A stretch of 37,287 nt of DNA from Prevotella sp. (GTDB lineage: Bacteria > Bacteroidota > Bacteroidia > Bacteroidales > Bacteroidaceae): the NCBI GenBank assembly GCA_017554385.1, contig JAFZIL010000086.1:1-37287 (forward strand), read 5' to 3'. The translations under genes were made by a program, and so were the position numbers. Positions 13,072-28,900 of this stretch are shown here, one piece after another; the stretch's first letter is position 1; every line of letters begins with the position of its first letter. Under the pieces are notes generated by a model, which saw nothing but the letters and a program-made list of their open reading frames with translations, did not search any database and was not told the DNA's origin.

Positions 13072-13103
13072 TTTGTCTCTCTCACATATTTTAATTAATT
13101 TTG
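13072..13103 (+). promoter_or_regulatory. Promoter of the signalling-TonB-NRPS operon
   Basis: TTTG at 13072-13075 and TAATTTTG at 13096-13103 are separated by exactly 20 bp, a full match to the Bacteroidetes vegetative promoter. The first gene starts at 13137, so the leader would be about 25-30 nt. No comparable promoter is seen before any of the next five genes. Confidence 0.8.
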
Positions 13104-13136: not shown

Positions 13137-14300
13137 ATGGCAGTAAAAATACTTAGCGTCGACGACGAGAACGACCTCGAGTTGCTGTTGACGCAATACT
13201 TCAGAAGGAAGATACGCAAAGGTGAATACGAATTTGTCTTTGCCCACAACGGACTGGAAGCCTTGACCATGATGCTGAAGCATCCCGACATCGAGATCAT
13301 CCTCTCGGACATCAACATGCCAGAGATGGATGGTCTGACACTGTTGGCAAAAATCAACGAGATGCGCAACCCCGCCCTGAAGGTAATCATGGTGAGTGCC
13401 TATGGTGACATGGGCAACATACGCCAGGCCATGAACAACGGAGCCTTCGACTTCGCCACAAAGCCTATCGACCTTGACGACCTGAGCGTGACCATCGAAA
13501 AGGCCATCGAGCAAATCAACTACGTGCATGCCTCCCAGCGCGAGCACTCTCAGTTGGAATCGCTGAAGGGCGACCTGGCGGTGGCACGTGACATACAGCA
13601 GGCCATTCTCCCGCTGACGTCGCAACTCAAGCCCTTCATTCAGGACAAATTGGACATCGCTGCGTCGATGACACCAGCAAAGGACGTGGGCGGCGATTTC
13701 TACGACTTCTTCCGCATTGACGACACTCATATCGGACTGATTATTGCCGACGTGAGCGGCAAGGGCATTCCCGCTGCCATCTTCATGGCCGTCAGCCGTA
13801 CGCTGATCAGAGCCACAGGCATTCGCGGCGTGAGTCCGTCGGAGTGCATCTCCTACTCAAACAAACTATTGGCGCAGGAATCTGTAAATAGTATGTTCGT
13901 CACCGTATTCTACGCCATCTTCGACTTGACCACAGGCACAATGACCTATTGCAACGCCGGCCACAACCCGCCCTACCTGCTGAAAGCCAGCGGCGAGGTG
14001 ACGGCACTGCCTATGACGGGCGATGCAATGGTAGGTGCCATCGACGATCTGGACTTCCATGAGGCAACCACCAAACTGGAGAAAGGCGATGCACTGGTCA
14101 TGTTTACCGACGGTGTCACCGAGGCCGTGAACACCTCCTTTGAGGAGTTTGGCGAGAAGCGGCTGACGGCTACGCTGGAACAGTTGTCCAAGGCAAACTG
14201 CCAACAGATTATTGACAGCGTGAAAACCGATGTGGCTGCCTTCGTAGGCGAAGCAGAACAGAGTGACGACATCACGCTACTGACGGTGAAAAGGATTTGA
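13137..14300 (+). CDS. Response regulator with PP2C-type (SpoIIE/RsbU) phosphatase output
   Basis: A 387-residue protein. Residues 1-125 are a CheY-like receiver: acidic pocket Asp9-Asp10, phospho-acceptor Asp58 in LSDINMPEMDG, switch residue in MVSAYGD and the conserved Lys in ATKPID. A helical linker (about 126-165; SQLESLKGDLAVARDIQQAILP) leads to a PPM/SpoIIE Ser/Thr phosphatase with metal-binding residues in DVGGDFYDFF, IIADVSGKG and MFTDGVTE, and SDDITLL at the end. By analogy with RsbU-type regulators, phosphorylation of the receiver would control dephosphorylation of a target, classically an anti-sigma antagonist, but no such partner gene lies here. The ATG at 13137 is chosen over the upstream in-frame codon at 13101 because that lies in the promoter box. 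Its TGA stop is the first TGA of a heptamer array. Confidence 0.93.
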   Translation: MAVKILSVDDENDLELLLTQYFRRKIRKGEYEFVFAHNGLEALTMMLKHPDIEIILSDINMPEMDGLTLLAKINEMRNPALKVIMVSAYGDMGNIRQAMNNGAFDFATKPIDLDDLSVTIEKAIEQINYVHASQREHSQLESLKGDLAVARDIQQAILPLTSQLKPFIQDKLDIAASMTPAKDVGGDFYDFFRIDDTHIGLIIADVSGKGIPAAIFMAVSRTLIRATGIRGVSPSECISYSNKLLAQESVNSMFVTVFYAIFDLTTGTMTYCNAGHNPPYLLKASGEVTALPMTGDAMVGAIDDLDFHEATTKLEKGDALVMFTDGVTEAVNTSFEEFGEKRLTATLEQLSKANCQQIIDSVKTDVAAFVGEAEQSDDITLLTVKRI

Positions 14301-14329
14301 GGTTTGAGATTTGAGGTTTGAGGTTTGAA
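14295..14329 (+). repeat. 7-bp tandem array (RTTTGAG), five units, forming a stop-start junction
   Basis: Five units (14295-14301, 14302-14308, 14309-14315, 14316-14322 and 14323-14329) alternate ATTTGAG and GTTTGAG. The stop TGA of the phosphatase gene (14298-14300) is in unit 1 and the TTG start proposed for the next gene (14325-14327) is in unit 5, with 24 nt between them. Confidence 0.9.
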
Positions 14330-15911
14330 TAAGCGTAACATCATAACAGGCGTAGCCGGACTGTTGCTGGCAGGAGCGGCAGTAGCAGGACTGGCAGGAT
14401 GGCAGGCCGAGAAGAGGCGTGCCGAGGGACTGGAGTCGCAGCTGGCCGACCTGCAACAGCAGGAGAAACGGTCGGCAGTAGTGCGCAGCGTGAGCAAGCA
14501 GATGGAAGAGATTGCCTATCAGCAGAAGGAAATCTCGGACGAGCAGCGCGTGGAAGCACAGCAACAGACGATCGTAGCCAACGAGGAGCGACAGAAAGCA
14601 CAGGCTTCTGAACAACAGGCCAGAGCGTCTGAGCAAAGGGCACTCGAATCGGAACGCCAAGCCCAAGACGCACGTCTGTTGGCAGAGAACGAACGACAGG
14701 TAGCCGACCACCAGCGCTCGCAGGCAGAACTGTCGAGAAGCATCGCTGACACCTTGCGCTACAGGGCCTTGGGCCGTTCGCTCGGATCGCTGTCGATGAC
14801 ACAGGCACAGTCGGGCAACAAGGACATTGCCGACCTGCTGGCCTACGCTGCCTACGTCTATACCAACCGTTACAAGGGCGACCTGTACAACTCAGCCGTG
14901 CTGCAGCCGCTCATGACGGCAGGCCAGAGCAAACAGTCGTGGGCTGTACACAACGGGGCAGTGACCTGTATAGACTTCGTACCGGGCAGCGACGACGAAC
15001 TGGTGAGCGTGAGCAACTACGGTGAGATTATCCATCATAAGAAGACGGGCAACCAGCTGAAGTCGACCGTGCTGCTGAAAGACAACCAATACGATTTCCG
15101 ATATGCCTCCATGAACGACAAAGGTACCATCAGTGCCATCAGCCGTTCAGGCCATCTTATCCTGCTGGAGAATGGGCATGCAAAGAAAGTCTACCAAATC
15201 GCAGGAGTGGAACACCCCAACTGGATGTCGCAGGTAAACAACGACCAGATCATTGTCAGCGGTGACAGGAGCATCGCTTTCTTGAACCAGAACAACTATC
15301 AGCAGACAGGTACCCACACCTTCAACGCCAACATCACAGCCTACGGCAGAAAGAACAACCATCCTGTGCTGTTCGACAACAAAGGACAGATGCACGAGGT
15401 GGTGAGTGCCAGTAACATACAGACCAAGAGCGTGCCCGTCAAGGGAACGGTGACTGCCTATGCCGAATCAAAGAATGCTGGCATCGAGGCCTACGGCATG
15501 AGCGACGGCAGCATCTACGTGATTGACCGGCAAGGCAACGTGAGGACGCTCGTGGGTCACCGCTCACGCATCTCCCGACTGAAGCTCAACGGGAAACGAC
15601 TCTTCTCCTCAAGCTACGACGGTACGCTGAACCTCTGGATGATCACCAACGACAAGAACGAGAAAATCGATCCCATGCCACTGTTTACTGCTGGCACATG
15701 GATCATATATTTCACCAACGACGAGGCGAAGAAATACCTGTGGACAGGCGACCAGAAAGGAACCCTGACCGAGGCACTCATCGACATCCCGACGATTGTG
15801 GCGAAAGTGAAAGGACAGCTCAAGCGCGATCTGACAACCGAGGAATGGAACTACTACATCGGACAGACCGTGCCAAGGGAGTCGTTCCTATCGGAAAAGA
15901 GTAAGAAGTAA
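14325..15911 (+). CDS. Membrane-anchored coiled-coil/WD40-like protein
   Basis: A 528-residue protein from a TTG codon. The TTG is chosen because the next Met is after the membrane segment and coiled-coil start (residue 61). Residues 6-24 (IITGVAGLLLAGAAVAGLAG) are a membrane anchor or uncleaved signal. Residues about 28-145 are a long coiled coil rich in Glu, Gln, Ala and Arg with repeated QQAR/EQRA/ESER units. A segment ALGRSLGSLSMTQAQSGNKDIADLLAYAAYV follows, resembling the helical part before WD40 repeats in STAND-type ATPases. The rest (about 200-510) is propeller-like; the best WD40 repeat is VGHRSRISRLKLNGKRLFSSSYDGTLNLW. No enzymatic motif is seen. It sits between the phosphatase and the propeller kinase, suggesting a scaffold or sensor in the same pathway. 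The function is unproven. Confidence 0.82.
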   Translation: MNKRNIITGVAGLLLAGAAVAGLAGWQAEKRRAEGLESQLADLQQQEKRSAVVRSVSKQMEEIAYQQKEISDEQRVEAQQQTIVANEERQKAQASEQQARASEQRALESERQAQDARLLAENERQVADHQRSQAELSRSIADTLRYRALGRSLGSLSMTQAQSGNKDIADLLAYAAYVYTNRYKGDLYNSAVLQPLMTAGQSKQSWAVHNGAVTCIDFVPGSDDELVSVSNYGEIIHHKKTGNQLKSTVLLKDNQYDFRYASMNDKGTISAISRSGHLILLENGHAKKVYQIAGVEHPNWMSQVNNDQIIVSGDRSIAFLNQNNYQQTGTHTFNANITAYGRKNNHPVLFDNKGQMHEVVSASNIQTKSVPVKGTVTAYAESKNAGIEAYGMSDGSIYVIDRQGNVRTLVGHRSRISRLKLNGKRLFSSSYDGTLNLWMITNDKNEKIDPMPLFTAGTWIIYFTNDEAKKYLWTGDQKGTLTEALIDIPTIVAKVKGQLKRDLTTEEWNYYIGQTVPRESFLSEKSKK

Positions 15912-15933
15912 AGGATATAGGAGAAATGAGATC

Positions 15934-18831
15934 ATGACAAAACGTATATTCTTGTTCTTCACCCTGCTATGGTGCTGCACGGGCATTGCACGGGCACAGG
16001 GAGGTATTCCCTTCATCCGTAATTTCACTGCTACGGAATACGGTGCCCACAACCGTAACTTCGACATTGTCTGCACCAAGGACAACACCGTGTTCGTAGC
16101 CAACTTCGAGGGGCTGCTCTATTACGACCATGCCGAATGGCGCATCCTGCACACACCGGGCATCACCCGTATCACCGACCTCTTCATCGACTCGAAGGGT
16201 ACCGTCTGGACTGGCGGTTATAACTATATCGGCAAGGTAGAGGCCACCCCAAACGGAGAGTTAAAGCTGCGCGACATGGCCAGCCGCACTCCCGTCAAGG
16301 GCGAAGTGAGAAACATCTGGGAAGATAAAGGACAGCTGCTATTCCTCGTGGGTGACTCGACGGTCTATACCATAAGCCCCAACGGTATCAGCCTAGAACA
16401 GGGAAAGAAAATCCCCATTGACAACACAGTCTTCGGCAACGAATACACGATAGTACAACGACTGCCCATAGGCAATGAACTGCTGGCACTTGCCACGAAC
16501 GGCAGCGGCATCGTCATTACCAATGCCAAAGGGCAACGGCTCTATACTATCACCGAGACCAACGGCTTGTGTTCGAACAACGTAAACCATATTGCCTACG
16601 ATGGTACAGGTACCTTATGGGGAGCCACCGACAACGGTCTGTTTGCCATAGCACTACCCGCCGTCTACTCGCACTTTACTGCCAACGAAGGACTGCCCGG
16701 TGAGGTGCTGGCCATCCAAAAAGGAACAGGTGGACAGCTATACGTAGGCACGCTGAACGGTCTGTATCGTCGGGACGGTATGGCTTTCGTGCCCGTTCAT
16801 GGTGTTATCCATGCTTGCTGGGCACTGCAGCCGATGGCTGGCAACCTGATGGCTGCCACGTCTGGAGGTGTCTATCGCGTTAGCAGCAATGGCTTGGTCA
16901 CCCAGCTCACCTCAGCTTCAACGACTGCCTTATTGGTGAAGGGCGATTACTTCTATACCGGCGAGCTCGATGGTGTCTACAAGAACACCCTTTCAGGAAA
17001 CAGAGAGCGCATCTGCGACGGAGAGAAAGTGACGAAGATCTACGAGGACAGCAAAGGCTGCCTGTGGTTTCAGAACCTATATGGACAAATCTGGAAAACA
17101 GAAGCCGGAGCAAAGATGCCCCGACTGCTGGGCAAGGAAGATGGAAAGTCGGACGATGCCGCTACACTTGTCGACATCGACAGACAGGCTGTTGTCGTCG
17201 GTGCCACCGACACGAAGCCCTTCCCCTACCCGCAATTCTCCTATACCGATGGCAACGGACTGACATGGCTCACCGATAACGAGGGTAAGAACCTCTATGT
17301 GTGGAAAGACAATAAGCGCATTGGCGACTATGCTCCCCTACTCTACCGCCTTGCTGACAAGGCCACCCGCGCCATCCTTACCGACAACCAATATCTATGG
17401 GTAGGTGGCGACTTCGGTCTCACCATCATTGACAAGCAGCAGAAAGACCCGATGCAGGCGAAGACTCCCGTACTTCAGTTCCGCTCGATAACGGTCAACG
17501 GCGACAGCGTGCTGTGGGGAGGCTTCGGAAAACAGCCATCTTCACTTCCTCGACTGTCGAGAGACGAGCGTAACCTCCGCTTCACCTTCGCAGTCAACCA
17601 AACACCGCTCTTAGGTCATACCGACTATCGCTATCGCATGAATGGTGGCGTGTGGAGTGCCTGGTCGTCATCGACTGAGGCAAGGTTCTTCAATCATCCC
17701 AGTGGTTTCTTCCAGCTTGAGGTACAGGCACGCGACAACATGGGACGCCTGTCCGACATCATTGGCATTAACTTCAGCATCAGCCTGCCGTTCTTCGCTC
17801 GCTGGTACATGCTGCTGCTCTACCTTGTGCTCTTGGCTCTCGCTGTTGTTGGCATCATCAGGTGGAGGTTGCAGCGCCTGGAAAAAGAGAAGGTGCGTCT
17901 GGAAAACATCGTGCAGGAACGCACTGCCGAGGTGGTGAAGCAGAAAGACGAGATTGAAGAGAAGTCAAAGAGCTTGGAGACAGCACTGAAAGACCTCGGT
18001 GAGGCCCAGCACGAGCTGATCCGCCAGGAAAAGATGGCCACAGTGGGTAAGCTGACACAGGGTCTTATCGACCGTATCCTCAACCCGCTGAACTACATCA
18101 ACAACTTCTCGAAGCTGTCGGAAGGACTGTTGAAGGACGTGGAAACGAACATCGACGACGACAAGGACGGAATGGATCCTGAGAACTATGAGGACACAAA
18201 GGACGTGCTCAACATGCTGCGCACCAATCTTCAGAAGGTTGGCGAGCACGGACAGAACACCACCCGCACGCTGAAGGCTATGGAGGAGATGCTGAAAGAC
18301 CGTTCGGGCGGCATCGTCCCGATGGACTTGGCAGCCGTACTGCGTCAGGACTATGAGATGTTGGGCAAGTACTATGAGAAGGATATTGCCCAATATGGCA
18401 TCAAGACCCGTCTTGAACTGCCCGAGGGTGAGCTGCACATCAACGGCAATGCCGACCAGTTGAGCAAGACCTTCATGAGCCTGCTTGGCAACAGCATCTA
18501 TGCCGTAAGCAAGAAAGCCCAGCGCCAGCAGTACCAGCCAGAGGTGAGCATCATTGTATCCAACCTCAATCCTCAAACCTCAAATCTCAAACCTCAAACC
18601 TCAAACCTTATCGCCATCACAATCCGCGACAACGGTATAGGTATCGAGTCCACCATCATCGACAAGATCTTCGACCCCTTCTTCACCACGAAGACCACGG
18701 GAGAGGCCGCTGGTGTGGGACTTTACTTGAGCCGTGAGATCGTGCAGAACCACGGAGGCGACATCAGCGTCAATTCCATCAAGAACGAATATAGCGAGTT
18801 CATCATCACACTGCCCGCTACAACCTTATAG
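15934..18831 (+). CDS. Periplasmic propeller sensor kinase lacking the phospho-acceptor histidine
   Basis: A 965-residue protein. Signal peptide is residues 1-22. Residues about 25-540 form a two-domain propeller of Reg_prop type (ITDLFIDSKGTVWTGGYN and VNHIAYDGTGTLWGATDNGLF are typical blades), followed by a Y_Y_Y-like domain (about 545-615; DYRYRMNGGVWSAW), a transmembrane helix (about 622-640) and a coiled coil. The dimerisation helix reads VGKLTQGLIDRILNPLNYINNF: where HisKA domains have His-Glu, this one has Asp713-Arg714. The ATPase domain looks complete: N box LLGNSIYAV, G1 RDNGIGI, F box FDPFFTTK and G2 GVGLYLSREI. The protein probably senses a ligand in the periplasm and acts through a partner kinase. 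No receiver or AraC output is fused, unlike classical Bacteroides hybrid sensors. A 42-bp heptamer array is inserted in frame just before the G1 box. Start ATG is 22 bp after the previous stop. Confidence 0.9.
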   Translation: MTKRIFLFFTLLWCCTGIARAQGGIPFIRNFTATEYGAHNRNFDIVCTKDNTVFVANFEGLLYYDHAEWRILHTPGITRITDLFIDSKGTVWTGGYNYIGKVEATPNGELKLRDMASRTPVKGEVRNIWEDKGQLLFLVGDSTVYTISPNGISLEQGKKIPIDNTVFGNEYTIVQRLPIGNELLALATNGSGIVITNAKGQRLYTITETNGLCSNNVNHIAYDGTGTLWGATDNGLFAIALPAVYSHFTANEGLPGEVLAIQKGTGGQLYVGTLNGLYRRDGMAFVPVHGVIHACWALQPMAGNLMAATSGGVYRVSSNGLVTQLTSASTTALLVKGDYFYTGELDGVYKNTLSGNRERICDGEKVTKIYEDSKGCLWFQNLYGQIWKTEAGAKMPRLLGKEDGKSDDAATLVDIDRQAVVVGATDTKPFPYPQFSYTDGNGLTWLTDNEGKNLYVWKDNKRIGDYAPLLYRLADKATRAILTDNQYLWVGGDFGLTIIDKQQKDPMQAKTPVLQFRSITVNGDSVLWGGFGKQPSSLPRLSRDERNLRFTFAVNQTPLLGHTDYRYRMNGGVWSAWSSSTEARFFNHPSGFFQLEVQARDNMGRLSDIIGINFSISLPFFARWYMLLLYLVLLALAVVGIIRWRLQRLEKEKVRLENIVQERTAEVVKQKDEIEEKSKSLETALKDLGEAQHELIRQEKMATVGKLTQGLIDRILNPLNYINNFSKLSEGLLKDVETNIDDDKDGMDPENYEDTKDVLNMLRTNLQKVGEHGQNTTRTLKAMEEMLKDRSGGIVPMDLAAVLRQDYEMLGKYYEKDIAQYGIKTRLELPEGELHINGNADQLSKTFMSLLGNSIYAVSKKAQRQQYQPEVSIIVSNLNPQTSNLKPQTSNLIAITIRDNGIGIESTIIDKIFDPFFTTKTTGEAAGVGLYLSREIVQNHGGDISVNSIKNEYSEFIITLPATTL
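18565..18606 (+). repeat. In-frame 7-bp array (CTCAAAC), six units, inside the propeller kinase gene
   Basis: Six units from 18565 to 18606 (42 bp, two complete 21-bp frames) encode SNLNPQTSNLKPQT-like residues between strands of the ATPase domain, just before IAITIRDNG. The protein stays open because this orientation has no stop in any frame. Confidence 0.92.
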
Positions 18832-18837
18832 CTGCCT

Positions 18838-19662
18838 ATGGAACAACAAGTAGAAACGCTTAAACAGCAACTGAAGAACCAGGAGAAACTGGCATCATTA
18901 GGAATGCTCAGTGCCGGCATTGCCCATGAGATCCAGAATCCGTTGAACTTCGTTATCAACTTCAGCAAGATGTCGGGTAAGTTGCTCAACGACCTGACCG
19001 AGATTGTCGAGGACAACGAGGACAACCTCTCTGAAGACGATCGCGAAGAGGTAGAGGATATCGTTGCCGACCTGAAGGAGAACATGGCAAAGATTGTGGA
19101 GCACGGTGAGCGCGCCATCAGCATCATACAGGGCATTCTGCTCGTATCGCGCGGCAAGGAAAACGAGTTCCTGCCTTCCGACGTCGTCCGACTGGTCAAG
19201 GAATACGTGTGGCTGTCGTACCACGCCATGCGTGCCAACTACAAGGGGTTCAACATCAGCATTCATGAGAACTACGAGGAAGGTCTGCCCCAAATCATGG
19301 TCATCCCTCAGGACCTGAGTCGCGCTGTGCTCAACGTGATGAACAATGCCTGCTATGCGGTGTGGAACAAGGCGCAGACCGCTCCCGCTGACTACAAACC
19401 CGAGGTCACTGTCACCGTAGCTGCCACTCCCCCGACGCTCACCATCTCTATTGCTGACAATGGTGAGGGAATGAACGAGCAAGTACGCCAGCACATATTC
19501 GAGAACTTCTTCACTACGAAGCCTGTGGGCAAGGGAACAGGACTGGGCATGGGCATCACCCGCGACATCATTGAGAACAAGCACGGTGGCACTGTCAGCT
19601 TCGAGTCTGTCGAAGGCCAGGGTACCACGTTCACCTTCACCATACCTATGAGGGAAAAGTGA
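18838..19662 (+). CDS. Soluble histidine kinase without sensor domain
   Basis: A 274-residue kinase with only a short coiled coil (residues 1-20), a HisKA-like helix pair and an ATPase domain. The phospho-acceptor is present: LGMLSAGIAHEIQNPLNFVINFSKMS with His30. The ATPase has N box LNVMNNACYAV, G1 ADNGEGM, F box FENFFTTK and G2 GTGLGMGI. The dimer helix is clearly related to that of the preceding gene (both have NPLN followed by NFSK.S), yet here His is kept and there it is Asp. Start ATG at 18838 follows the previous stop by 6 bp, so tight co-translation is likely. With no sensor of its own, it most plausibly receives its signal from the membrane partner and phosphorylates the receiver at 13137. 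That pairing is inference. Confidence 0.93.
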   Translation: MEQQVETLKQQLKNQEKLASLGMLSAGIAHEIQNPLNFVINFSKMSGKLLNDLTEIVEDNEDNLSEDDREEVEDIVADLKENMAKIVEHGERAISIIQGILLVSRGKENEFLPSDVVRLVKEYVWLSYHAMRANYKGFNISIHENYEEGLPQIMVIPQDLSRAVLNVMNNACYAVWNKAQTAPADYKPEVTVTVAATPPTLTISIADNGEGMNEQVRQHIFENFFTTKPVGKGTGLGMGITRDIIENKHGGTVSFESVEGQGTTFTFTIPMREK

Positions 19663-19689
19663 AGAGTGAAAAATGAAAAGTGAAAAATG
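19655..19689 (+). repeat. 7-bp tandem array (AAAAGTG / AAAAATG), five units, forming a stop-start junction
   Basis: Five 7-bp units: AAAAGTG, AAGAGTG, AAAAATG, AAAAGTG and AAAAATG. The kinase stop TGA (19660-19662) straddles units 1 and 2 and the ATG of the next gene (19687-19689) is the end of unit 5. As at 14295-14329, exactly 24 nt separate stop and start. Confidence 0.9.
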
Positions 19690-22158
19690 GAAATAATGAA
19701 TAAACGACTAAGACACCAGATAACAGATTTGGCAAGAAAAACCTTTTTGCCTTCTTATCTTTTTACCTTCTTACTCTTTTTCCTTTTTACTTTTACTCCC
19801 ACAGCCTTGTCAGCTCAGGAGGCTGACGGCAGCCTGCGACAGATTTACGAACAGGCAGAGAGCGACTATCAGATAGGACGTCTGGAGCAGTCGCTCGAAC
19901 TGTTGCAGAGCAACCTCGGACGCTTCAGCGGCAACCTGCGACAGAGTGCTTACCGCCTTATCGCCCTCTGTTACCTGGGACAGGACAAGATGGAGGAGAC
20001 CGAGAGCTACGCCTCGCTGCTGCTCAAGGAGAATCCCTACTACAACTCCGTGCAGGATCCCACCCGTTTCGAGGATATCGTAAACCGTCTGAAGTCAGGT
20101 CAGAGTGCCACCATCACCACGGCTTCGAAGCTGGCCGAGTCGGTCGAAGAAGCGCCTGTACCAGTGACGCTTATCACTGAGGAGATGATACGTCTGAGCA
20201 CCGCCCGTAACCTGTTAGAGCTGCTGGCCGACTATGTACCGGGCATCAGTATCGTTGAGGGCGAAGAATCTAACTTCAGCATGCGTGGCATGTTTGCCTA
20301 TTCGCAGGAGAACGTGCTCATCATGCTCAATGGCGTACGACTGAACAGCTACTGCACCAACTCCGTTGCTCCCGACTACCGCATCTCGTTAGCCAACATC
20401 AAGCAGATCGAGGTGCTGCGCGGCGCTGCCTCGTCACTCTATGGAAACGTGGCTCTCAGTGCTGTGGTCAACATTATCACGAAGGACGGAAACAGCGTCG
20501 ATGGCGTAAAGGCCACCATCGGTGCCGGTAACTATAACACCTATAAGGTCGATGTCATCGTGGGAAAGCAATCGCTCAACACGAACCTGCTGGTGTGGGG
20601 GTCGCTCTATAGTTCTAAGGGCACACGCCACGACATTGCTGCCGACGATCCGTTCGATGCCTACGGCTTGATACCAGTCGACGGAAGTATCTATACCAAC
20701 GGATACAACGGAAAACCTGCCTACGATCTGGGAATCTCCTACAAGTGGAATCACTTCAACCTGCAGGCCAGCCACCAATACAGCAAACGTGTCTACCCCT
20801 ATAACAACATGTTCATTGCCACGACCTACAGCTACGACCGCTACAGTCCCATAGACGGTGTGCGCCCCGGACGTGGCGTGTCGGCCACCAATGCGAGCTT
20901 GAAATATGCCAACGACTGGAAACAGCTGTCGTTAGAGACCAACGTGAACTTCAACCACGAGAGCACCAACCTCTATAACATGCCCAGCGACACCCTGCCC
21001 AGTTTCTTAACTGGAGCAGCCGCATATTTCGACTGGAAAGACGAGTATTTCGACACCGGCACCATCTCACTGGAATCAGGACCATTCCAGACACAAAGCT
21101 GGAAAGACATGAACATCAGTGGCGACCTCAAAGCCATCTACCAGTATTCGTTAAACCGAATAGGGCAAGGCAGCCTGCTCGTGGGTCTGCAGTACGACTG
21201 GTTCAACCTCTATTATAATGATTTCGCCTTGGGCGACCACTTCGACCGCATCATCATCAAAACTGACAACGACCGCTCTCCCATCTTCAAGAACAACATC
21301 GAGAGCACCTTTTCGGGCTTCACCCAGCTGAAGCACTTCTTCACCCCGACCCTGATTCTCAACGCCGGTCTGCGCTACGACCACAAACACCGCTATAACG
21401 GCACCAACAAAGACGTGCTGTCACCACGTATTGCCCTGGTATGGAGTCCCACGAAAACGACCAACTACAAGCTGTCCGTAGCCCGTTCGTTTGTCGATGC
21501 GCCCTACTTCTACCGCGTTTCCAGTGTAGTCTATCCCGGCAACGAGGATCTTAGTCCCCAGTACTTGAACAACATTCAGCTATCGGCCTCGCTCGCCTTC
21601 CCCAGTATTCACTGTCGCTATGAGGGGAACCTGTTCTGTAACTACGTGAAGGACATCATCACCTTAAGCAATAGCGAATACGCCAATGCCGGTACCGTGT
21701 GTAATGCCGGCTTGGAGAATATCCTTACCTACGACACGCCAGGCCTTAAGGCACGCGGAACGGTCTATCTGCAACGGGTGCTTGAAGTCGACGGAAACTC
21801 CGGCGAGGGCCATACGCTCTACTCCGTTCCCGATATCACAACCCATCTGCAAGTGTCGAAGCAGCTCTTCAAAAGCCTGTGGCTCGTAGCCAAAGGCTCG
21901 CTGACCAGCAAGCAGACCTATATCTATCCCAGCAACATGGTCTACCGTGGAGGTGAAGGGCTGGTAGGAACAACGGTCGACCTGCCCAGCTGTTTCCTGC
22001 TCGACCTTGGCGCACGCTACTCCTGGAAATGGCTCGATGCCTCGCTCACCTGCCAGAACGTGCTTGACCATCAATACCGCTTGGGAGGCGACCGCATGCC
22101 GGTACTGCAACAGGGCGCAACGATTCTCGGCACCCTCTCTGTACATCTAACCAAATAA
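19687..22158 (+). CDS. TonB-dependent outer-membrane receptor with TPR-like N-terminal region
   Basis: An 823-residue receptor for active uptake across the outer membrane. The N-terminus has a long signal peptide whose hydrophobic core (FLPSYLFTFLLFFLFTFT) is encoded by an octamer repeat. Residues about 45-120 look like a pair of TPR helices (IYEQAESDYQIGRLEQSLELLQSN, LIALCYLGQDKMEETESYASLLL). The plug domain follows (VTLITEEMIRLSTARNLLELLADYVPGISIVEG, IKQIEVLRGAASSLYGNVALSAVVNIITKDG), then the 22-strand barrel to the C-terminal strand (QNVLDHQYRLGG...TLSVHLTK). It lacks the CarboxypepD-like domain and SusD partner of glycan receptors and is shorter than SusC. It resembles vitamin or siderophore receptors more. 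Its neighbours are two kinases upstream and an NRPS downstream, so a peptide or metallophore ligand is a reasonable guess. A second possible start is the ATG at 19696. Confidence 0.93.
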   Translation: MEIMNKRLRHQITDLARKTFLPSYLFTFLLFFLFTFTPTALSAQEADGSLRQIYEQAESDYQIGRLEQSLELLQSNLGRFSGNLRQSAYRLIALCYLGQDKMEETESYASLLLKENPYYNSVQDPTRFEDIVNRLKSGQSATITTASKLAESVEEAPVPVTLITEEMIRLSTARNLLELLADYVPGISIVEGEESNFSMRGMFAYSQENVLIMLNGVRLNSYCTNSVAPDYRISLANIKQIEVLRGAASSLYGNVALSAVVNIITKDGNSVDGVKATIGAGNYNTYKVDVIVGKQSLNTNLLVWGSLYSSKGTRHDIAADDPFDAYGLIPVDGSIYTNGYNGKPAYDLGISYKWNHFNLQASHQYSKRVYPYNNMFIATTYSYDRYSPIDGVRPGRGVSATNASLKYANDWKQLSLETNVNFNHESTNLYNMPSDTLPSFLTGAAAYFDWKDEYFDTGTISLESGPFQTQSWKDMNISGDLKAIYQYSLNRIGQGSLLVGLQYDWFNLYYNDFALGDHFDRIIIKTDNDRSPIFKNNIESTFSGFTQLKHFFTPTLILNAGLRYDHKHRYNGTNKDVLSPRIALVWSPTKTTNYKLSVARSFVDAPYFYRVSSVVYPGNEDLSPQYLNNIQLSASLAFPSIHCRYEGNLFCNYVKDIITLSNSEYANAGTVCNAGLENILTYDTPGLKARGTVYLQRVLEVDGNSGEGHTLYSVPDITTHLQVSKQLFKSLWLVAKGSLTSKQTYIYPSNMVYRGGEGLVGTTVDLPSCFLLDLGARYSWKWLDASLTCQNVLDHQYRLGGDRMPVLQQGATILGTLSVHLTK
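19743..19798 (+). repeat. 8-bp tandem array (CTTTTTAC / CTTCTTAC) encoding a signal-peptide core
   Basis: Seven octamers in register (CTTTTTGC, CTTCTTAT, CTTTTTAC, CTTCTTAC and variants) span 19743-19798. Read in frame they give the Phe/Leu-rich hydrophobic core of the receptor's signal peptide. Confidence 0.8.
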
Positions 22159-22183
22159 CACCGCTCATCAGCTCCTCATCCCC

Positions 22184-25100
22184 ATGCCTCACTCCATTCC
22201 ACTGACAGAAGAACAAAACGGTATCATGCTCGACTGGGTGCAGCATCCCGACCTCACTCAGTACAATGTCTGTTGCCTTCATTCTTGTCCTCCATCGGTC
22301 GATGCAGAAAAGCTTTACCAGTGTCTGATAAGAATGGTAGAACGTCACGACATCTTCTATACACGTATTGCTCACGATGACGAGGGGTTCTGTCAGTACA
22401 TAGACCGTTCCCAACAGTTGGAGTTAGACTATGTTGAGATGGACGAGGCCGACTTCGACGCCTACAAACACAACTACATCCGACCCATCAACGTGTTCCG
22501 CGACGCACTAGTCCACATGGCCATTGTCAAGACCCAGGAACACGTCCACTTCATCATCGATGCCAGCCATCTCATCATCGACGGTGTTTCCTGCAGCCTG
22601 ATCTGGAATGAGCTGACCAAGGAATACCTTCAGCAACAGGACGACAACTCTTCGGCCATTCAGCCTACCCCCCTCGGCATATACGTGGCGAAGGAACAGG
22701 AGCAACTTCACTCGCCTGCCTACCAGCAAGCCGAAGCTTTCTACAAGAAAGCCTTCGAAGGCTACACCATGACCCGCATTCCGTCGCCGCATCCAGAAGC
22801 CATCGGTGAGTTCATCTGCGCTGTGACCAAGATGCAGAAGACCGAAGTCGAAGCGTTCTGCAAGTCCTACGGTCTGTCACCCAACATCCTCTTCATGGCA
22901 GCCTCTGCCATTGCCTTTTCAGCCTTCTCTGGCGAACAGCGGGTGGCCTTCTACAGTGTCAACCACGGACGGAGCGACCGTCAGATCCGTGAAGCCATCG
23001 GCATGTTTGTCAAGACCATGCCGTTCAAAGCCGACCTGACCAACGGCGACCAGCCTATACTCGACTTCGTTCGCGACTTCAAGCACCAGATGATGTCCAA
23101 CATCCGCTATGGTGTCTACCCCTTCAACCACTTCTGCCGGGAGTTGAAAATACAGCCGGAGAACTCGTTCAATTTCCACGTCACAGCCAAGAACGCAACC
23201 ATTGGCGACCTTCCTGTCGATGCCGAACAGTACTACAGTGGTCCTGTTGCCGACAGCATGACCGCAGGGGTATGGGACAAGGGCGACAACTACGAGATAG
23301 AGATTGTCTACAACGACCAGCGATATGACCATTGGCTCATGCAACAGTTGGCCAACACCATCCGTAGCATCACCGAGAACATCATGTGCCATCCCGATGC
23401 CACTCTTGCCACACTGCCTCTGGTTACCGAAGACGAGGCACGCGACATCCTCGAAGTGAGCACGGGCGACAGTCTGCCTTCACCTGCCGACTACGAGCTT
23501 GACTTCGTGTCGATGTTCTGCCATCAGGCACAGCTCAGCCCTACAGCAATCGCCTTGGTCGACCATGTCGGCAGCCTCACCTACGAAGAGCTCGACCGTC
23601 AGTCATCGTTACTCGCCCATCACCTCATCAGTGAGAAAGGGGTCACTGCCGGCGACCGTGTAGTGATCAAGATGTCTCGCTGCAAGGAGTTCATGGTAGC
23701 TGTCATTGCCGTCATGAAGGCAGGGGCATGCTACGTGCCCGTCGATCCCAACCTGCCAGCTGAACGCATTCAATACATTGTAAATGACTCCTGCGCCCGT
23801 CTAATTGTCAATGACGAGTGGATCACCTCCCAAACCTCAAACCTCAAACCTCAAACCTCAAATCTCAAACCTCAAACCTCAAACCTCAAATCTCAAACCT
23901 CAAACCTCGCCTACATCATCTACACCTCCGGCTCCACTGGTCTACCCAAGGGTGTCGTCATCTCCCATCGTGCCTTGGCTTCGTTCGTCCGTACCTGCCG
24001 TCATACCTATCAGCTCACGTCAGCCGACCGGATTCTCTGTCATGCCAGCTTCAGCTTCGATGCCTCCGTCGAAGACCTCTTCCCCATACTCACCTGCGGT
24101 GGCGAGCTACACATCCTTGACGAGGCCATACGCACCGACCTGCCAGCCATCAAGACCTACATTGAGGAACATCATATCACGGGTGGCAACTACACCACCG
24201 CCTTTGGCGAACTGTTGCTCATGTCCTATCCCGACCTGCCCCTTCGCTATGTCACCCTCGGTGGTGAGCGGCTCGACCGCATGCCACAGGGGCTCACCTG
24301 TCGTTTCTTCAACTCCTACGGCCCCACCGAGTTCACCGTCGATGCCACCTTCTGGGAAGCACCACAACAAACCTCAAACCTCCACTCCTCCACCCCCCCC
24401 ATCGGTCGTCCCGTCTGCGACTGTCAGGCACTCGTACTCGACGAGCGAGGCCGTATCCTGCCATTAGGATGTCCGGGCGAGCTCTGTCTCTCCGGCCCTC
24501 AGATAGCCGACGGCTACTGGCAGCGTCCCGAACTCACTGCCGAGCGCTTCGTCGACGGCAAGTTCCGCACCGGCGACTTCGTGCGTTGGCAATCCATCCC
24601 AGCAAACCTCAATCCTCAAACCTCACTCCAACTCGAATACATCGGACGCCACGACCGTCTGGTAAAGCTTTATGGTTTCCGCATCGAATTAGGCGAGATC
24701 GAGGCAGCCATCATGGCGCAGCCCCACATCGTACAGGCCATAGTCCTGGTACGTGTGGTCAATGGTAACACCCGCCTCTGTGCCTGGTTCACCGCTAACC
24801 AGCCAGTAGACACAACCCAACTGAAGGCATCACTCAGCCAGTCGATGCCCCATTACATGATTCCCGCCATCTACCAGCAGATCGACACCATTCCCCTAAC
24901 TACCAACGGCAAGATCGACGAACAAAAACTGCCAACAGAGCATTTGACCCTTCACTCCCCTTCACTCCTAACTCATAACTCCTCCCTCCTAACTCATAAC
25001 TCCCCCTTAGAGTCCCTTCTCCACGACATCGTCTGCGAGACCCTGGGCCTTGAATCTGTCAGCGTCGAAGCCGACCTCTTCTCCGATCTCGCCCTGTCGT

Positions 25101-25915
25101 CGCTACAGGCTGCCAGCGTGGCTTTCAAGGCCATGAAACAGGGACTCGACATCAACGTCTCCACACTCTATCGGGCACGCACCATCCGTCAGGTCGTAGC
25201 CGCCTCTTCATCCTCACAGGAGAATATCGGGGACACTGCACTACCCCTTATGCTGCTCATCTGCGGCTATCCTCACCAGCATCCACATTTTGATGCCTTC
25301 ATCGAGATCTTCAGCAAACGCTTCTCCATCTTCGTCATCGACTCGTTTATTGAAGCATTCCGTGGAGGCAAGCCTGTATCCTACGAACGTCTCATGGAGC
25401 AATACGTCGACATCGTCAATCGCGAACTGCGCAACCGTACTATCAGCGTCATCGTCGGATGGTGCTTTGGCGGCGAGCTGGCCCTCCTCCTTGCTCAACG
25501 AATCAAGGAACAATTCAACAGCCCGCGCGTTCTGGTACTCGATGGCATCTATCGTCATTCAGACTTCGTAGAAGTCGTTCCTGAGAGCGCCAAAAATGAT
25601 GAGACACTTGTCGATTATATCCGCATCAGCAACGCACTTGCCCTTCAGCTACCCGAACCTCTTTACGATGGCGATGCCCTGTTCTGTTATGCCGGCATCA
25701 TCCCACCCTACCGTTCGTCCGACTTCCCCGACCTGCTCCTGACGCCAGCCGAGGAGGAAGAGCTGCGCAGGCTAAGCCGCGAGAACGAGACCCTGTGGCG
25801 CCAGCACTATCCCAACGCCGGCTTCTACCAGTTGAGCCGCCACCACTATGAGTTCCTGTCGCGTGAGAACCTGCTCGACGTTGCACAGATACTAAAGAAC
25901 CACTGGAATCTATAG
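22184..25915 (+). CDS. Single-module nonribosomal peptide synthetase, C-A-T-TE, with Cys thioesterase
   Basis: A 1243-residue synthetase. Condensation domain (about 1-430): LTEEQ start and core motif SHLIIDG, where HHxxxDG has lost its first His but keeps catalytic His129 and Asp133. Adenylation domain (about 445-920): LTYEEL, MKAGACYVPVDP, YIIYTSGSTGLPKG, FDAS, NSYGPTE, FRTGDFVRW, YIGRHDRLVKLYGFRIELGEIE and TTNGKID are all present. Carrier domain (about 945-1010): DLALSSLQ with Ser973 for phosphopantetheine. Thioesterase (about 1020-1243): nucleophile elbow GWCFGG with Cys1094 in place of Ser, and His in RHHYEF. By eye against GrsA numbering the pocket reads D-A-E-N-V-L-S-V-D-K; two acidic positions hint at a basic amino acid, low certainty. 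Four stretches of heptamer repeat are inserted in frame. It is last in the operon, 25 bp after the TonB receptor. No phosphopantetheinyl transferase or exporter is in the window. Confidence 0.93.
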   Translation: MPHSIPLTEEQNGIMLDWVQHPDLTQYNVCCLHSCPPSVDAEKLYQCLIRMVERHDIFYTRIAHDDEGFCQYIDRSQQLELDYVEMDEADFDAYKHNYIRPINVFRDALVHMAIVKTQEHVHFIIDASHLIIDGVSCSLIWNELTKEYLQQQDDNSSAIQPTPLGIYVAKEQEQLHSPAYQQAEAFYKKAFEGYTMTRIPSPHPEAIGEFICAVTKMQKTEVEAFCKSYGLSPNILFMAASAIAFSAFSGEQRVAFYSVNHGRSDRQIREAIGMFVKTMPFKADLTNGDQPILDFVRDFKHQMMSNIRYGVYPFNHFCRELKIQPENSFNFHVTAKNATIGDLPVDAEQYYSGPVADSMTAGVWDKGDNYEIEIVYNDQRYDHWLMQQLANTIRSITENIMCHPDATLATLPLVTEDEARDILEVSTGDSLPSPADYELDFVSMFCHQAQLSPTAIALVDHVGSLTYEELDRQSSLLAHHLISEKGVTAGDRVVIKMSRCKEFMVAVIAVMKAGACYVPVDPNLPAERIQYIVNDSCARLIVNDEWITSQTSNLKPQTSNLKPQTSNLKSQTSNLAYIIYTSGSTGLPKGVVISHRALASFVRTCRHTYQLTSADRILCHASFSFDASVEDLFPILTCGGELHILDEAIRTDLPAIKTYIEEHHITGGNYTTAFGELLLMSYPDLPLRYVTLGGERLDRMPQGLTCRFFNSYGPTEFTVDATFWEAPQQTSNLHSSTPPIGRPVCDCQALVLDERGRILPLGCPGELCLSGPQIADGYWQRPELTAERFVDGKFRTGDFVRWQSIPANLNPQTSLQLEYIGRHDRLVKLYGFRIELGEIEAAIMAQPHIVQAIVLVRVVNGNTRLCAWFTANQPVDTTQLKASLSQSMPHYMIPAIYQQIDTIPLTTNGKIDEQKLPTEHLTLHSPSLLTHNSSLLTHNSPLESLLHDIVCETLGLESVSVEADLFSDLALSSLQAASVAFKAMKQGLDINVSTLYRARTIRQVVAASSSSQENIGDTALPLMLLICGYPHQHPHFDAFIEIFSKRFSIFVIDSFIEAFRGGKPVSYERLMEQYVDIVNRELRNRTISVIVGWCFGGELALLLAQRIKEQFNSPRVLVLDGIYRHSDFVEVVPESAKNDETLVDYIRISNALALQLPEPLYDGDALFCYAGIIPPYRSSDFPDLLLTPAEEEELRRLSRENETLWRQHYPNAGFYQLSRHHYEFLSRENLLDVAQILKNHWNL
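23828..23908 (+). repeat. In-frame 7-bp array (CTCAAAC), about ten units, inside the NRPS adenylation domain
   Basis: Ten uninterrupted units of CTCAAAY (23836-23905), with a partial unit before them, encode tandem SNLKPQT heptapeptides between core motif A2 and the A3 loop YIIYTSGSTG, about residues 549-575. Known A domains have only a short loop there. Confidence 0.95.
24366..24384 (+). repeat. Short CTCAAAC array between A5 and A6 motifs
   Basis: Two units of AAACCTC (about 24369-24383) encode QTSNL inside the NRPS gene, followed by a C-rich stretch encoding SSTPP, between NSYGPTE and GCPGELCLSG. Confidence 0.75.
24604..24629 (+). repeat. Short CTCAAAC array between A7 and A8 motifs
   Basis: Units CTCAATC, CTCAAAC and CTCACTC (24608-24628, exactly 21 bp) encode NLNPQTS between FRTGDFVRW and YIGRHDRLV of the NRPS. 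Confidence 0.8.
24954..25006 (+). repeat. 7-bp array (TAACTCA/TAACTCC) in the A-T linker of the NRPS
   Basis: Units TAACTCA, TAACTCC, TCCCTCC, TAACTCA and TAACTCC run in perfect 7-bp register at 24969-25003, preceded by two copies of CCTTCACTCC. They encode LLTHNSSLLTHNS in the linker between adenylation and carrier domains. A longer pure array would expose TAA stops; the TCCCTCC unit prevents this. Confidence 0.85.
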
Positions 25916-25936: not shown

Positions 25937-25960
25937 GTGAGGGTGTCATAGTCACCTCAC
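25937..25960. terminator. Possible hairpin between convergent genes
   Basis: GTGAGG (with one extra G before TG) pairs with CACCTCAC across a short loop, in the 36-bp gap between the NRPS stop and the stop of the minus-strand gene, overlapping the latter. The minus strand reads into a T-rich tract (CTTTGTCTCTTTTTT). Plausible but weak. Confidence 0.4.
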
Positions 25961-28900
25961 CACTGTCTTCCTTCCATTGATGATGTATATGCCTTTTTTG
26001 ATGATGGAGGATGGAGAGTGGACGGTGGAGAGTTTGCGTCCTTGCAGGTCGTAGACAGCAGTTCCCGTTTCTGATGGCTTTTGCTTCGTTTCCGTAATCT
26101 CGGTGGTATTGCCGATATGGATATTGAACGGCTGACGATAGCTGCCCACCATGTCGCTGCTGAATAGCAGGGATTCATGGGCCGTAAAGGTGGCGCCTGT
26201 CGACAACTGGGTCACCACGAGACTGACGGGAACAGTTTCCTCGCCATAGACCGTGAGGTAGATTCTGTCGCCCACCAGTTGGCTGATGCCTCGCAGTTCG
26301 CTACCGGAGATAGCCTCAACATAATAGTCGGAAGCATCATCGACGCTACCGTCCATGACTACACGTGCGGTGATGTTCATGGTGTGGGGATAGCGGTGAG
26401 GAAGGAGTACTGACCCCACCCCTGCCCCTCCCCTACAAGAGAGGGGAGTGCCTAACGGAGTCCCTACAAGGGAAGGGTAATCCTGGCGTGATGCGAACTC
26501 GTCGTTGCCCGAGAGGGTGCTTGATAAATTCAAGGTGGTATGATCGAAGTTATAGGCAAGCTGCTTGGTCGTAACCGACTTATAGAGATAGCCGGCACCG
26601 GGGATTAGCTGACTGAGCGTACCCTTCCACTCACCCTCGGCATACTCGGCAAATGCCGTCTGACCTACGATGCAGTCGCCCTCCTCGGCATTACCCATCA
26701 CGCCGAGCGGCATGGCCTCATCGTGCGGATAGCCCACCCAGTTCCAGCCTGCCACGACATCAACGGGCAGGTCGGGATCGCAGACATAGCCCTTGAACGC
26801 CCAGCTGACGGGCTTCGTCGTCTCGACCTTATAGCCCACGCCCGGCTCCAGGCTGTTGACACCGCCCACAAAGCCTAACTGCGGGTCGTTGATGAGCTCC
26901 TCGGTCTGGCTGAGCACGCGGTTCAGCCCTTCGGTCTTTCCCTCTAACGACAGCACGCTGCTCAGATAGCCCGACACCCAGTTCCAGCCTTCGGCAAGGG
27001 CAAAGGTCTGGTAGGTGTCGCCCTCACCGGGAATGAACGTCACCCGGAAACTGCTACTGCAGTTGCTGCCCGTATATTTGTTGGCCAACCCTGGGGTACC
27101 TAACTTGATGTCGCTCAGGCTTACCTGATAGCTGCCCTCACCGACCGTCTCGCCCACGGGGCGCAACAGCAGGCTCAGCACCAGACCCTCGCCCGGTGCG
27201 ATGCCAGCGTCGGACATGAAATAGCCGAAGCAACGCAGTTTGCCCGTTCCGACAGGCAGCCAGGTAAGGGTCATGCCCGTAGCCCTCTCCGTCAGCGTGT
27301 AGTTACCGTCGAACGGCTCATACTGTGCTGCGGGATAGGTCAGGTCGAACTGTATGCCTGTCACCGCGTCGTAGTTGTCTATCGACACATCGACCGACAG
27401 CGGCTTGTCGGCAAACACGTCGGGCGTGGCTACGCTGAGGTAGTTGGGCGCAAAGCGGCTGCCCTTCACCGTGACCTCCTTCAGACGGAGATTGGGGTCG
27501 TTACTGTATATCTGCATCAGCGACTCGAAGGATGCCTCCTCCAGATTGTTGTAGACCACCGTAACCGTGGCTGCATTCCATGTGGAGATAACGATGGGGA
27601 GCGATTCCTTGATCGAGAAGTGCTCGTTGTCGAAGGCAATACGGCTCACGGTGAGCGGTGCCGACCCGTAGTTCCTGATGGTCAACTGCTTCTCGCAGGC
27701 TTCCGTCAGGCTGACGGCTCCGAAGTCGAGCACGTTGTCGGTGACGATGTCCGGGCTGTTGATAGAGACGGTTGTCCCATAGACAGCCGATACCACGTTC
27801 TCCACCATATTGTTGATCGTGGCGGTGAGCACCGTCTTCGAGGGTGTCAGCTGAACGTCGTAGGGACCCTTGAGCCTGACGCGCATCGAACCGATGACAC
27901 CATCGTTGCCCGTAAAGGGCGTGTCGGAGGGCGAGTAGACGATGATGCGCAGCTTGCTGCCCGTCAGCGATACCACGCTCACATGGTCCTGCTTGCGGTC
28001 GGGGGCGATGGCAAAGCTACCGTCGACATACTCCAGGGCATCTGGCATATCGAACTCCACCTGCATGCCGCTCACGGCATCCATATTATTCATCGTCATC
28101 TGGACCGTCACCTCCTCGTCACTGTTGCCCGAGGCAGGCAGCATGTGCAGCTCGTTCACGGCGTATGGGTCGGCCTTCAGCTTGATGGTGTTCAGCTTCG
28201 ACACGCTGTTGCACACCACCTTCAGCGACCTCTCAATGCTACCTCGGTTCACGGGGGCGTAGGTCACGTTCAGGGCTTGTGATGCGCCCGGAGCTACGAT
28301 GAGCGGCAGCGGGGTGGTGGTAGAGAAAACGTTCACGTCAGTAAAGTCCATCGATGTCAGCGTGAGGTCGGCATTGCCCGTGTTCCTTACCGTGACCATC
28401 TGTGTATAGGTGCTGCGGATGGGGACATGACCGAAGTCTACCGTCATCGTACTATATTCGGCCTTGGCACAGCGGGTAATGACCGTGCCACCCACTGCCG
28501 AGGCATCTATCTGCGTGCCGTTGCTGTCGGCAAGCACCGTCCTCGTAGGTTGCAGCACCGTGCTGGCAGGCTGGGTGCCCAGCTTCAGCCGGAACGTCAC
28601 CACCTCACCGCTGTTATCCGTAAAGGGGGTCATCGCCAACGAGTAGACCAGCACGTTGAGCACGTCGTCCTTCACACCCACGGTCAGCGAGTGACTGGCA
28701 CAGCGGCTGCCCAACTGCTCCGAACCCTCGACGAGCGTCAGTCCGTCAGTCAGGGGGATGGTCACCTGCATGGAGGCCACGTCGGCGGTGTTCTCCACCG
28801 ACAGGCTCACCGTGACTTCCTCGCCCGGTCCGCCTTCGGCTGAAGACACCATGACCTTATTGTCGTATTCAGGCTCCTGCGGGGGGTCTTCAGGATCCTG

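Follow-up and report, generated by a model that had tools for sequence, protein, structure and literature searches.

The window analysed here is the whole of a 37,287-nucleotide contig of a Prevotella sp. (GenBank assembly GCA_017554385.1, JAFZIL010000086.1), contig C86 of a genome of 3.06 Mb in 98 contigs that is 81% complete. It contains six consecutive plus-strand genes (positions 13137–25915) encoding a phosphatase, a WD40-like protein, two kinase-like proteins, a TonB-dependent receptor and a nonribosomal peptide synthetase (NRPS). The flanking genes on both sides lie on the minus strand. In the following, numbers preceded by L, G and C denote loci, genomes and contigs.

Domains were assigned with Pfam at an E-value threshold of 0.001. 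Gene 1 (13137–14300, 387 aa) joins a receiver (Response_reg) to a SpoIIE/PP2C phosphatase domain. Gene 2 (14325–15911, 528 aa, TTG start) comprises an N-terminal membrane anchor, a coiled-coil-like stretch and one weak WD40 repeat match. Gene 3 (15934–18831, 965 aa) is a propeller sensor of the kinase type with Reg_prop and HATPase_c domains, a Y_Y_Y match under its cut-off and a single transmembrane helix (residues 624–642), and it gave no HisKA match at the threshold used. Gene 4 (18838–19662, 274 aa) is a soluble histidine kinase with HisKA and HATPase_c domains and no transmembrane helix. Gene 5 (19687–22158, 823 aa) encodes the receptor and matches Plug only, with no STN match. Gene 6 (22184–25915, 1243 aa) encodes a one-module NRPS with condensation, adenylation and carrier domains (C-A-T) and a thioesterase-like (TE-like) end carrying a Cys motif. 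All six reading frames were found as a first-pass annotation of this DNA had described them, including the receiver-PP2C phosphatase, the anchored coiled-coil/WD40-like character of gene 2 and the pairing of a His-less propeller sensor with a sensorless kinase.

The genes are separated by gaps of 24, 22, 6, 24 and 25 bp. A promoter of the Bacteroidota type, TTTG-N-TAATTTTG, lies upstream of gene 1 on the plus strand (13072–13103) and fits TTTG-N17-23-TAnnTTTG, which we take to be the consensus. For comparison we kept 80 of 178 related loci that were found (L036–L115). Their records are labelled Prevotella, Prevotellaceae, Bacteroidaceae or Bacteroidales, in many cases with a ruminant-gut title, and places that carry two identifiers were treated as one (L071 = L213, L088 = L219, L083 = L218). 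Counting the window, 35 of 70 loci have the promoter pattern in the 150 bp that precede gene 1 (base shuffles expect 0.3); the strict form is missing from the other half. Before genes 2 to 6 it was found in 2/75, 0/78, 0/80, 0/75 and 0/26 loci, respectively. A scan for E. coli-type promoters and terminators was uninformative (10 promoter sites versus 9.2 expected from shuffles).

Tight spacing is also maintained among the relatives. A distance of at most 100 bp separates genes 1 and 2 in 65/70 loci, genes 2 and 3 in 72/75 and genes 3 and 4 in 75/79, and the receptor start overlaps the stop of gene 4 by 4 bp in 43 of 73 loci. Wherever the contigs of the 80 relatives extend far enough, the order phosphatase, WD40 protein, pseudokinase, kinase, receptor is nearly always kept. 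The exceptions are few: L057 and L082 showed neither gene 1 nor a receptor and L093 neither gene 2 nor a receptor, while in L074 gene 1 is not in its place and gene 2 is missing; some loci have broken frames (e.g. L060, L061, L070). Genes 1–5 are a conserved unit in ruminant-gut Prevotella. Order, spacing and the near-exclusive position of the promoter pattern before gene 1 support the single operon with one promoter and no further promoter box that had been claimed for this locus.

Heptamer tandem repeats (TTTGAGG / CAAACCT) were observed between genes 1 and 2 at 14294–14328. Because the TTG start of gene 2 sits in this repeat, its exact start is uncertain. The repeats also occur inside gene 3 (18559–18607) and gene 6 (23830–23906 and 24602–24629) with the frame kept, giving 25 matches in the window versus 0.19 expected. 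The insert in gene 3 is missing from the 14 orthologues listed.

The two kinase-like proteins differ in their H-boxes. That of gene 4 reads AHE[IV]QNP, and its phospho-acceptor His30 (codon 18925–18927) is a His in all 80 aligned rows, window included. In gene 3 the degenerate H-box IDRILNP (18067–18087) places Asp713 in the His position, with Asp-Arg in place of His-Glu, and is identical in 78 of 78 readable rows out of 79 aligned. Of the other motifs, G1, G2 and one Asn of the N-box are retained. Compared with the window, the pseudo-dimerisation domain is on average 82% identical (pseudo-DHp, 77 rows), the adjoining coil 78% (41 rows), the ATPase domain 68% (77 rows) and the propeller 44% (78 rows).

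A profile of the pseudo-DHp pieces (alignment A2, 20 of 77 eligible rows plus the window) was run against 247 genomes from the order and 247 from the phylum, each set including the window's own genome. The 59 loci fetched comprise the window, 11 loci with DR for HE and 47 with HE only. The 11 DR loci (L227–L235, L256, L257) belong to 11 genomes outside the genus, and in 8 of these an intact kinase is encoded in the same roughly 3-kb locus as the pseudokinase. In a kinase tree (trees were built by a quick method, with near-identical rows kept in) a single 100/100 branch parts 23 pseudokinase from 31 canonical rows, one pseudokinase place being present twice (L292/L312). The two halves of the pair branch in broadly matching ways (L293; L286 with L287; L285 near Prevotella; L290 with L288 and L289). 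The pseudokinase clade includes several families from two classes of the phylum. Judged by its sequence, gene 3 is a true pseudo-histidine kinase of one Bacteroidota clade, usually encoded beside an intact kinase; the first-pass annotation had not recognised it as an old and dedicated pseudokinase. Long gene-3-like proteins with an intact His, found in L296, L299, L300 and L304, may represent the unsplit state. The idea that gene 3 regains its His where gene 4 is missing was rejected, as the copies in L212, L214 and L217 keep DRILNP.

In gene 1, the receiver residue D58 and the PP2C residues D187, D205, D325, D377 and D378 are conserved in 70 of 70 aligned rows. The closest solved structure over the full length is 3eq2, annotated as a "probable two-component response regulator". 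The NCBIfam model of RssB scores 128.5 bits, far under its cut-off of 700. The conservation of the receiver Asp, the PP2C motifs and the kinase His is consistent with the earlier proposal that the kinase pair feeds the phosphatase.

The output of the operon, which the first-pass annotation had missed, is probably STAS/RsbW partner switching; STAS/RsbW genes adjoin the pair in other families and in some Prevotella operons and are also present elsewhere in the own genome. In L285, L286, L287, L292 and L293 they stand beside the kinase pair and the phosphatase. In L305, L307 (opposite strand) and L309 they are found close to the WD40 gene, some 9–11 kb away from the pseudokinase. Among the 80 relatives RsbW was found in 8 (fused to a MATE transporter in L072 and L079) and STAS in 2. 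The locus L071 reads in one direction STAS-RsbW-phosphatase-WD40-pseudokinase-kinase-receptor-SLC13-HD-RelSpoT, and L212 reads SLC13-STAS-RsbW-phosphatase-WD40-pseudokinase-receptor. Contig C78 of the own genome carries RsbW (L208:3720–4148), 48–51% identical to five cassette-linked copies, as well as STAS (L207:13746–14048). In 29 genomes of the genus, own genome included and counted by eye, RsbW domains scoring 50 bits or more were present in 16 of the 18 that have SpoIIE and in 0 of the 11 that lack it, a link inflated by PP2C-RsbW fusions among the RsbW counts. The two SpoIIE genomes without RsbW are 50% and 56% complete.

Two further observations concern the switch. On C78 (L207:12679–14048) the STAS gene overlaps a RelA/SpoT-type gene by 4 bp; such a gene also adjoins STAS in G013 (L131 and L149, one place) and lies less close in G008 (L129). 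Together with the L071 cassette ending in SLC13-HD-RelSpoT, this suggests that partner switching is linked to alarmones. On contig C49 of the own genome (L209:13972–15687) a MATE protein with an RsbW-like end (20.7 bits, under the Pfam cut-off of 27.4) stands just before a large NRPS and is preceded by two acyltransferase genes (PF13444, PF19576). MATE proteins with an RsbW-like ATPase end beside NRPS genes were also observed in L072 (18646–20421) and L079. As to the eventual target of the switch, we regard RelSpoT and MATE as leads.

The WD40 protein (gene 2; alignment A1, 32 of 72 eligible rows plus the window) is found at E ≤ 1e-30 in 67 of 200 genomes of the genus. It resembles the WD40 part of larger proteins, and the two of these that were scanned (G289, G344) are both nSTAND1-WD40 proteins. 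Short anchored WD40 proteins like gene 2 are present in G254 and G573. Six larger WD40 proteins have one transmembrane helix each, by position at the junction of NTPase and WD40 (one protein is cut by the region end), so that gene 2 resembles the C-terminal half of the larger proteins. Provided that the NTPase is cytoplasmic, the WD40 part would be periplasmic.

Of the 11 genomes outside the genus, 7 encode both a WD40 protein and a receptor no more than about 7 kb from the pseudokinase (G254, G573, G635, G289, G235, G344 and G234; the distance is that to the receptor, for G254 to both). In G375 the contig breaks off, and in G063 the genes are spread over more than one contig. The only NRPS match listed for 20 other-genus regions was one of 52 bits to a 564-aa open reading frame (L302). 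Over 54 loci, from which those with two receptors or without a usable gene 3, gene 4 or receptor had been removed, distances between WD40 proteins track those of the gene 3 propeller most closely (0.77), and propeller and kinase core of gene 3 itself correlate at 0.44. The receptor barrel tracks none of the head genes (0.01–0.07) and the receptor head does so slightly (0.18–0.33). This pattern fits a chain of receptor head, WD40 protein and propeller.

The N-terminal head of gene 5 (19819–20136) precedes the plug and aligns with other receptors (alignment A3, 11 of 33 eligible rows plus the window and three outside receptors). It is 44–65% identical to receptors inside the genus and 41%, 31% and 27% identical to those of L285, L293 and L306 outside it. 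Several TPR families match the head at sub-threshold level only, the best PDB hit having an E-value of 0.013. Of the TonB receptor with a TPR-like head that had been annotated here, the receptor stands, and the head is TPR-like at most.

In gene 6, PF00668, PF00501 and PF00550 exceed their cut-offs and correspond to condensation, adenylation and carrier domains. The C-A-T part of the annotated C-A-T-TE synthetase is thereby confirmed; the TE part has no Pfam thioesterase match at E 0.001 and is assigned from where it lies, from its GWCFGG motif and from its resemblance to the ends of other NRPSs. Against the PDB this end gave chance-level matches only; the adenylation domain has PDB relatives, including an alignment to LgrA. 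In the TE-like end (25226–25912) GWCFGG has Cys where Ser is usual. GHCYGG occurs in L046, and GHSFGG or GHSYGG in the remaining loci with a recognisable motif. The letters of the adenylation pocket are D-A-E-N-T-G-S-V-D, six assigned by script and three by eye against LgrA, at positions given in GrsA numbering. Two acidic letters would suit a basic amino acid, a reading to which we attach little weight. A search of the own genome for a phosphopantetheinyl transferase (PPTase/AcpS, PF01648) found none and is uninformative for an assembly that is 81% complete.

The presence of an NRPS was decidable in 72 of the 80 loci; the other 8 were dropped, as too little sequence lies behind the receptor. 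An NRPS belongs to the same gene run in 25 of the 72, directly behind the kinase in 12 and behind a receptor in 13. In L037 and L052, both of the former type, no receptor is seen before the contig ends. The architectures range from A-T-TE to A-C-A-C-A-T-TE. Cassette-bearing records that are not labelled as metagenome-assembled include Prevotella sp. P6B1 (L104) and Prevotellaceae bacterium MN60 (L059), the latter with an NRPS as well. In the genus as a whole, condensation domains (E ≤ 1e-20) occur in 72 of 200 genomes, and Prevotella NRPS clusters have been reported to be expressed in the rumen (PMC8241843), in the main text of which "TonB" and "histidine kinase" had no match. The first-pass annotation had treated the six genes as one set. 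Gene order in other genomes upholds this for genes 1–5, the kinases not being unrelated neighbours, and fails to do so for the NRPS, which is absent in 47 of the 72 decidable loci and nearly absent in the other-genus regions. We rejected it as a core part: the NRPS is accessory, exchangeable cargo.

To follow the cargo, each locus was labelled for its layout (no NRPS, NRPS before the receptor, NRPS after the receptor) and the labels were scored on trees. The layout changes 15 times on the tree of genes 3 and 4 (71 rows) and 5 times on the receptor tree (77 rows). For the same 58 loci, leaving out those with two receptors or without a usable gene 3, gene 4 or receptor, there are 13 changes on the kinase tree and 3 on the receptor tree, the shuffled means being 19.2 and 19.3. 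In 21 loci (L097 and L101 were omitted because of two receptors, L037, L052 and L070 because of missing parts) distances between the last adenylation domains correlate with those between receptors (rank correlation 0.405, a value reached by 0 of 1000 permutations) and not with those between kinases (−0.049, reached by 718 of 1000). An exchange seems to be captured by L055 and L075: proteins 1–3 are 99, 96 and 96% identical and the DNA similarity extends into gene 4, whereas the receptors are 39% identical (that of L055 is cut at 522 aa) and the NRPSs are different. The simplest reading is that receptor-NRPS cargo has been exchanged behind a fixed head. Since they were apparently swapped together behind the relay, receptor and synthetase are suggested to act as a pair, which makes the functional pair proposed earlier likely.

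Other genes also accompany the receptor. In many Prevotella-type cassettes (L043, L054 and others), with or without an NRPS, it is followed by an AAA-type ATPase of 395–396 aa, and in several of them a pyruvate:ferredoxin oxidoreductase-like gene comes next (names assigned by eye). Downstream of the operon in the window, two minus-strand genes (25952–29596 and 29658–34136) encode a protein with HYDIN-like Ig and cohesin matches adjoining a subtilase, the latter with a dockerin type I match just under the cut-off.

Starting from the computed operon structure, domain content and invariant H-less motif, together with the kinase/pseudokinase pair in several families, the STAS/RsbW linkage and the receptor-NRPS co-inheritance, we infer the following mechanism; every physical contact in it, the location of gene 2 in the periplasm, the signalling direction and the nature of ligand and product belong to this inference. 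At the outer membrane, the receptor (gene 5) would bind or import a small molecule. This state would reach the periplasmic propeller of gene 3 by way of the receptor's periplasmic head and of the WD40 protein (gene 2), which would be anchored in the inner membrane. Lacking a phospho-acceptor His at the usual place, gene 3 would control gene 4, the soluble kinase; the simplest arrangement would be a heterodimer formed via the conserved H-less dimerisation domain. Gene 4 would then phosphorylate the receiver of gene 1, whose PP2C domain would dephosphorylate a STAS protein and thereby flip the STAS/RsbW partner switch. Where present, the NRPS (gene 6) would make a small amino-acid-derived molecule, the likely ligand of the co-inherited receptor.

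We consider it fairly probable that the operon is a receptor-coupled, trans-envelope signalling unit with exchangeable receptor-synthetase cargo. More tentatively, and at somewhat less than even odds, the unit could exemplify a so far undescribed Bacteroidota class of such signalling systems, composed of a headed TonB receptor, a periplasmic WD40 protein (alone or joined to nSTAND1), a pseudokinase with its kinase, a receiver-PP2C protein and STAS/RsbW. In ruminant-gut Prevotella it might serve as a plug-in head for exchanged receptor-NRPS pairs, so that each strain would sense its own or a neighbour's peptide-derived molecule. Several observations weigh against these proposals. The window's own receptor sits on a long branch of the receptor tree. 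Gene 3 is without the first N-box Asn that gene 4 has, which makes ATP binding uncertain, and the gene 3 copies in L212, L214 and L217 have no adjacent gene 4. The regions fetched for G304 and G404 contain the kinase pair and no WD40 or receptor match. Part of the distance correlations could result from shared recombination. A search of the window for STAS and RsbW found neither, the own-genome copies being on another contig, and 72 of the 80 relatives show no RsbW in the fetched stretch. Finally, the product of an operon NRPS cannot be the ligand in the loci that have none.

The main alternative is that the relay regulates the receptor and NRPS genes as ordinary targets, for example under metal limitation with a siderophore-like product, and that the receptor itself does not signal. 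The common promoter would suit such a scheme, and cargo exchanged independently of the relay is what regulated cargo would look like. With relay and cargo in one predicted transcript, however, the relay would regulate itself, and outside the genus the receptor and the WD40 protein keep their place near the pseudokinase in the seven genomes named above with no NRPS seen. We regard this explanation as unlikely, though it is the strongest competitor of a signalling receptor. Considerably less credit is due to a passenger role of the NRPS, in which it would have inserted behind a well-expressed operon and would be unlinked to the receptor. Its absence from most decidable loci and its variable position, directly behind the kinase or behind the receptor, would agree with this. 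On the other hand, in the same 58 loci the layout agrees with the tree of the receptors and not with that of the kinases, NRPS and receptor distances correlate, and in 200 genomes of the genus there are at least 11 gene-2 places (counted by eye) with a condensation domain about 4–9 kb downstream on the same strand.

Gene 3 could also be a degenerate kinase in decay, with gene 4 as a replacement acting alone; its H-box His and first N-box Asn are indeed lost. Decay is hard to reconcile with an H-less motif that is the same in every readable row, with a pseudo-DHp among the best conserved parts of the protein and with a pseudokinase clade spread over several families and two classes, and we consider it very improbable.

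If the receptor-coupled unit operates as proposed, outer-membrane receptors would have another way of reaching the cytoplasm in addition to sigma signalling of the FecA type, and STAS/RsbW switches in Bacteroidota would have an input. Natural receptor-synthetase pairs would help to guess the small molecule of each receptor, and the kinase pair would offer a natural test case, in several families, of a pseudo-histidine kinase steering a real one.

The domain composition of gene 3 resembles that of the hybrid two-component systems of polysaccharide utilisation loci in Bacteroidota, which combine a Reg_prop propeller, a Y_Y_Y-like region, a transmembrane helix and a histidine-kinase core. Gene 3 shares all four. 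In contrast to these systems, no receiver or AraC domain was found in it, its H-box is lost, and there is no SusD-like gene among the six.

For the output, the HsbR-HsbA system of Pseudomonas aeruginosa (and CrsR-CrsA) is the closest comparison: there (PMC6482189) a receiver-PP2C regulator that is phosphorylated by a kinase relay dephosphorylates an anti-sigma factor antagonist. Like HsbR, gene 1 joins receiver and PP2C in one response regulator, with STAS/RsbW available in the genome. HsbR has its own kinase/anti-sigma domain, whereas RsbW is a separate gene here, and its input consists of hybrid kinases and HptB instead of a pseudokinase/kinase pair, a WD40 protein and a TonB receptor. For the kinase pair, the comparison is with DivL-CckA of Caulobacter (PMC4211667), in which a kinase-like protein that has no autokinase function acts on a genuine kinase. 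The His position is occupied by Tyr in DivL; gene 3 has Asp713 and is thus not of the DivL family proper. It further differs in Asp-Arg for His-Glu, in its propeller sensor and in having as partner a soluble kinase encoded next door. In ChrS-HrrS of Corynebacterium (PMC9491836), the ChrS pseudokinase acting on a real kinase is a laboratory-evolved mutant of the CA domain; heterodimers have been demonstrated with the native kinases and not with the truncated form. As with DivL and ChrS, a kinase-like protein (gene 3) is found beside a real kinase (gene 4), a relation known here from adjacency.

For the receptor, the comparison is with FecA-FecR-FecI (PMC9249621), where a TonB receptor carrying an additional N-terminal domain in the periplasm is encoded together with signalling proteins of the inner membrane. 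Gene 5 likewise has an extra N-terminal head and such neighbours. Unlike the FecA type, it has no STN match, no FecR or ECF sigma factor was found by Pfam among the six genes, and the output would be phosphorylation. Among the titles and abstract openings listed from an open-access library, none names this combination. By analogy, each step of the proposed mechanism has a known counterpart, in HsbR, in DivL and ChrS, and in FecA; it is the combination that may be new.

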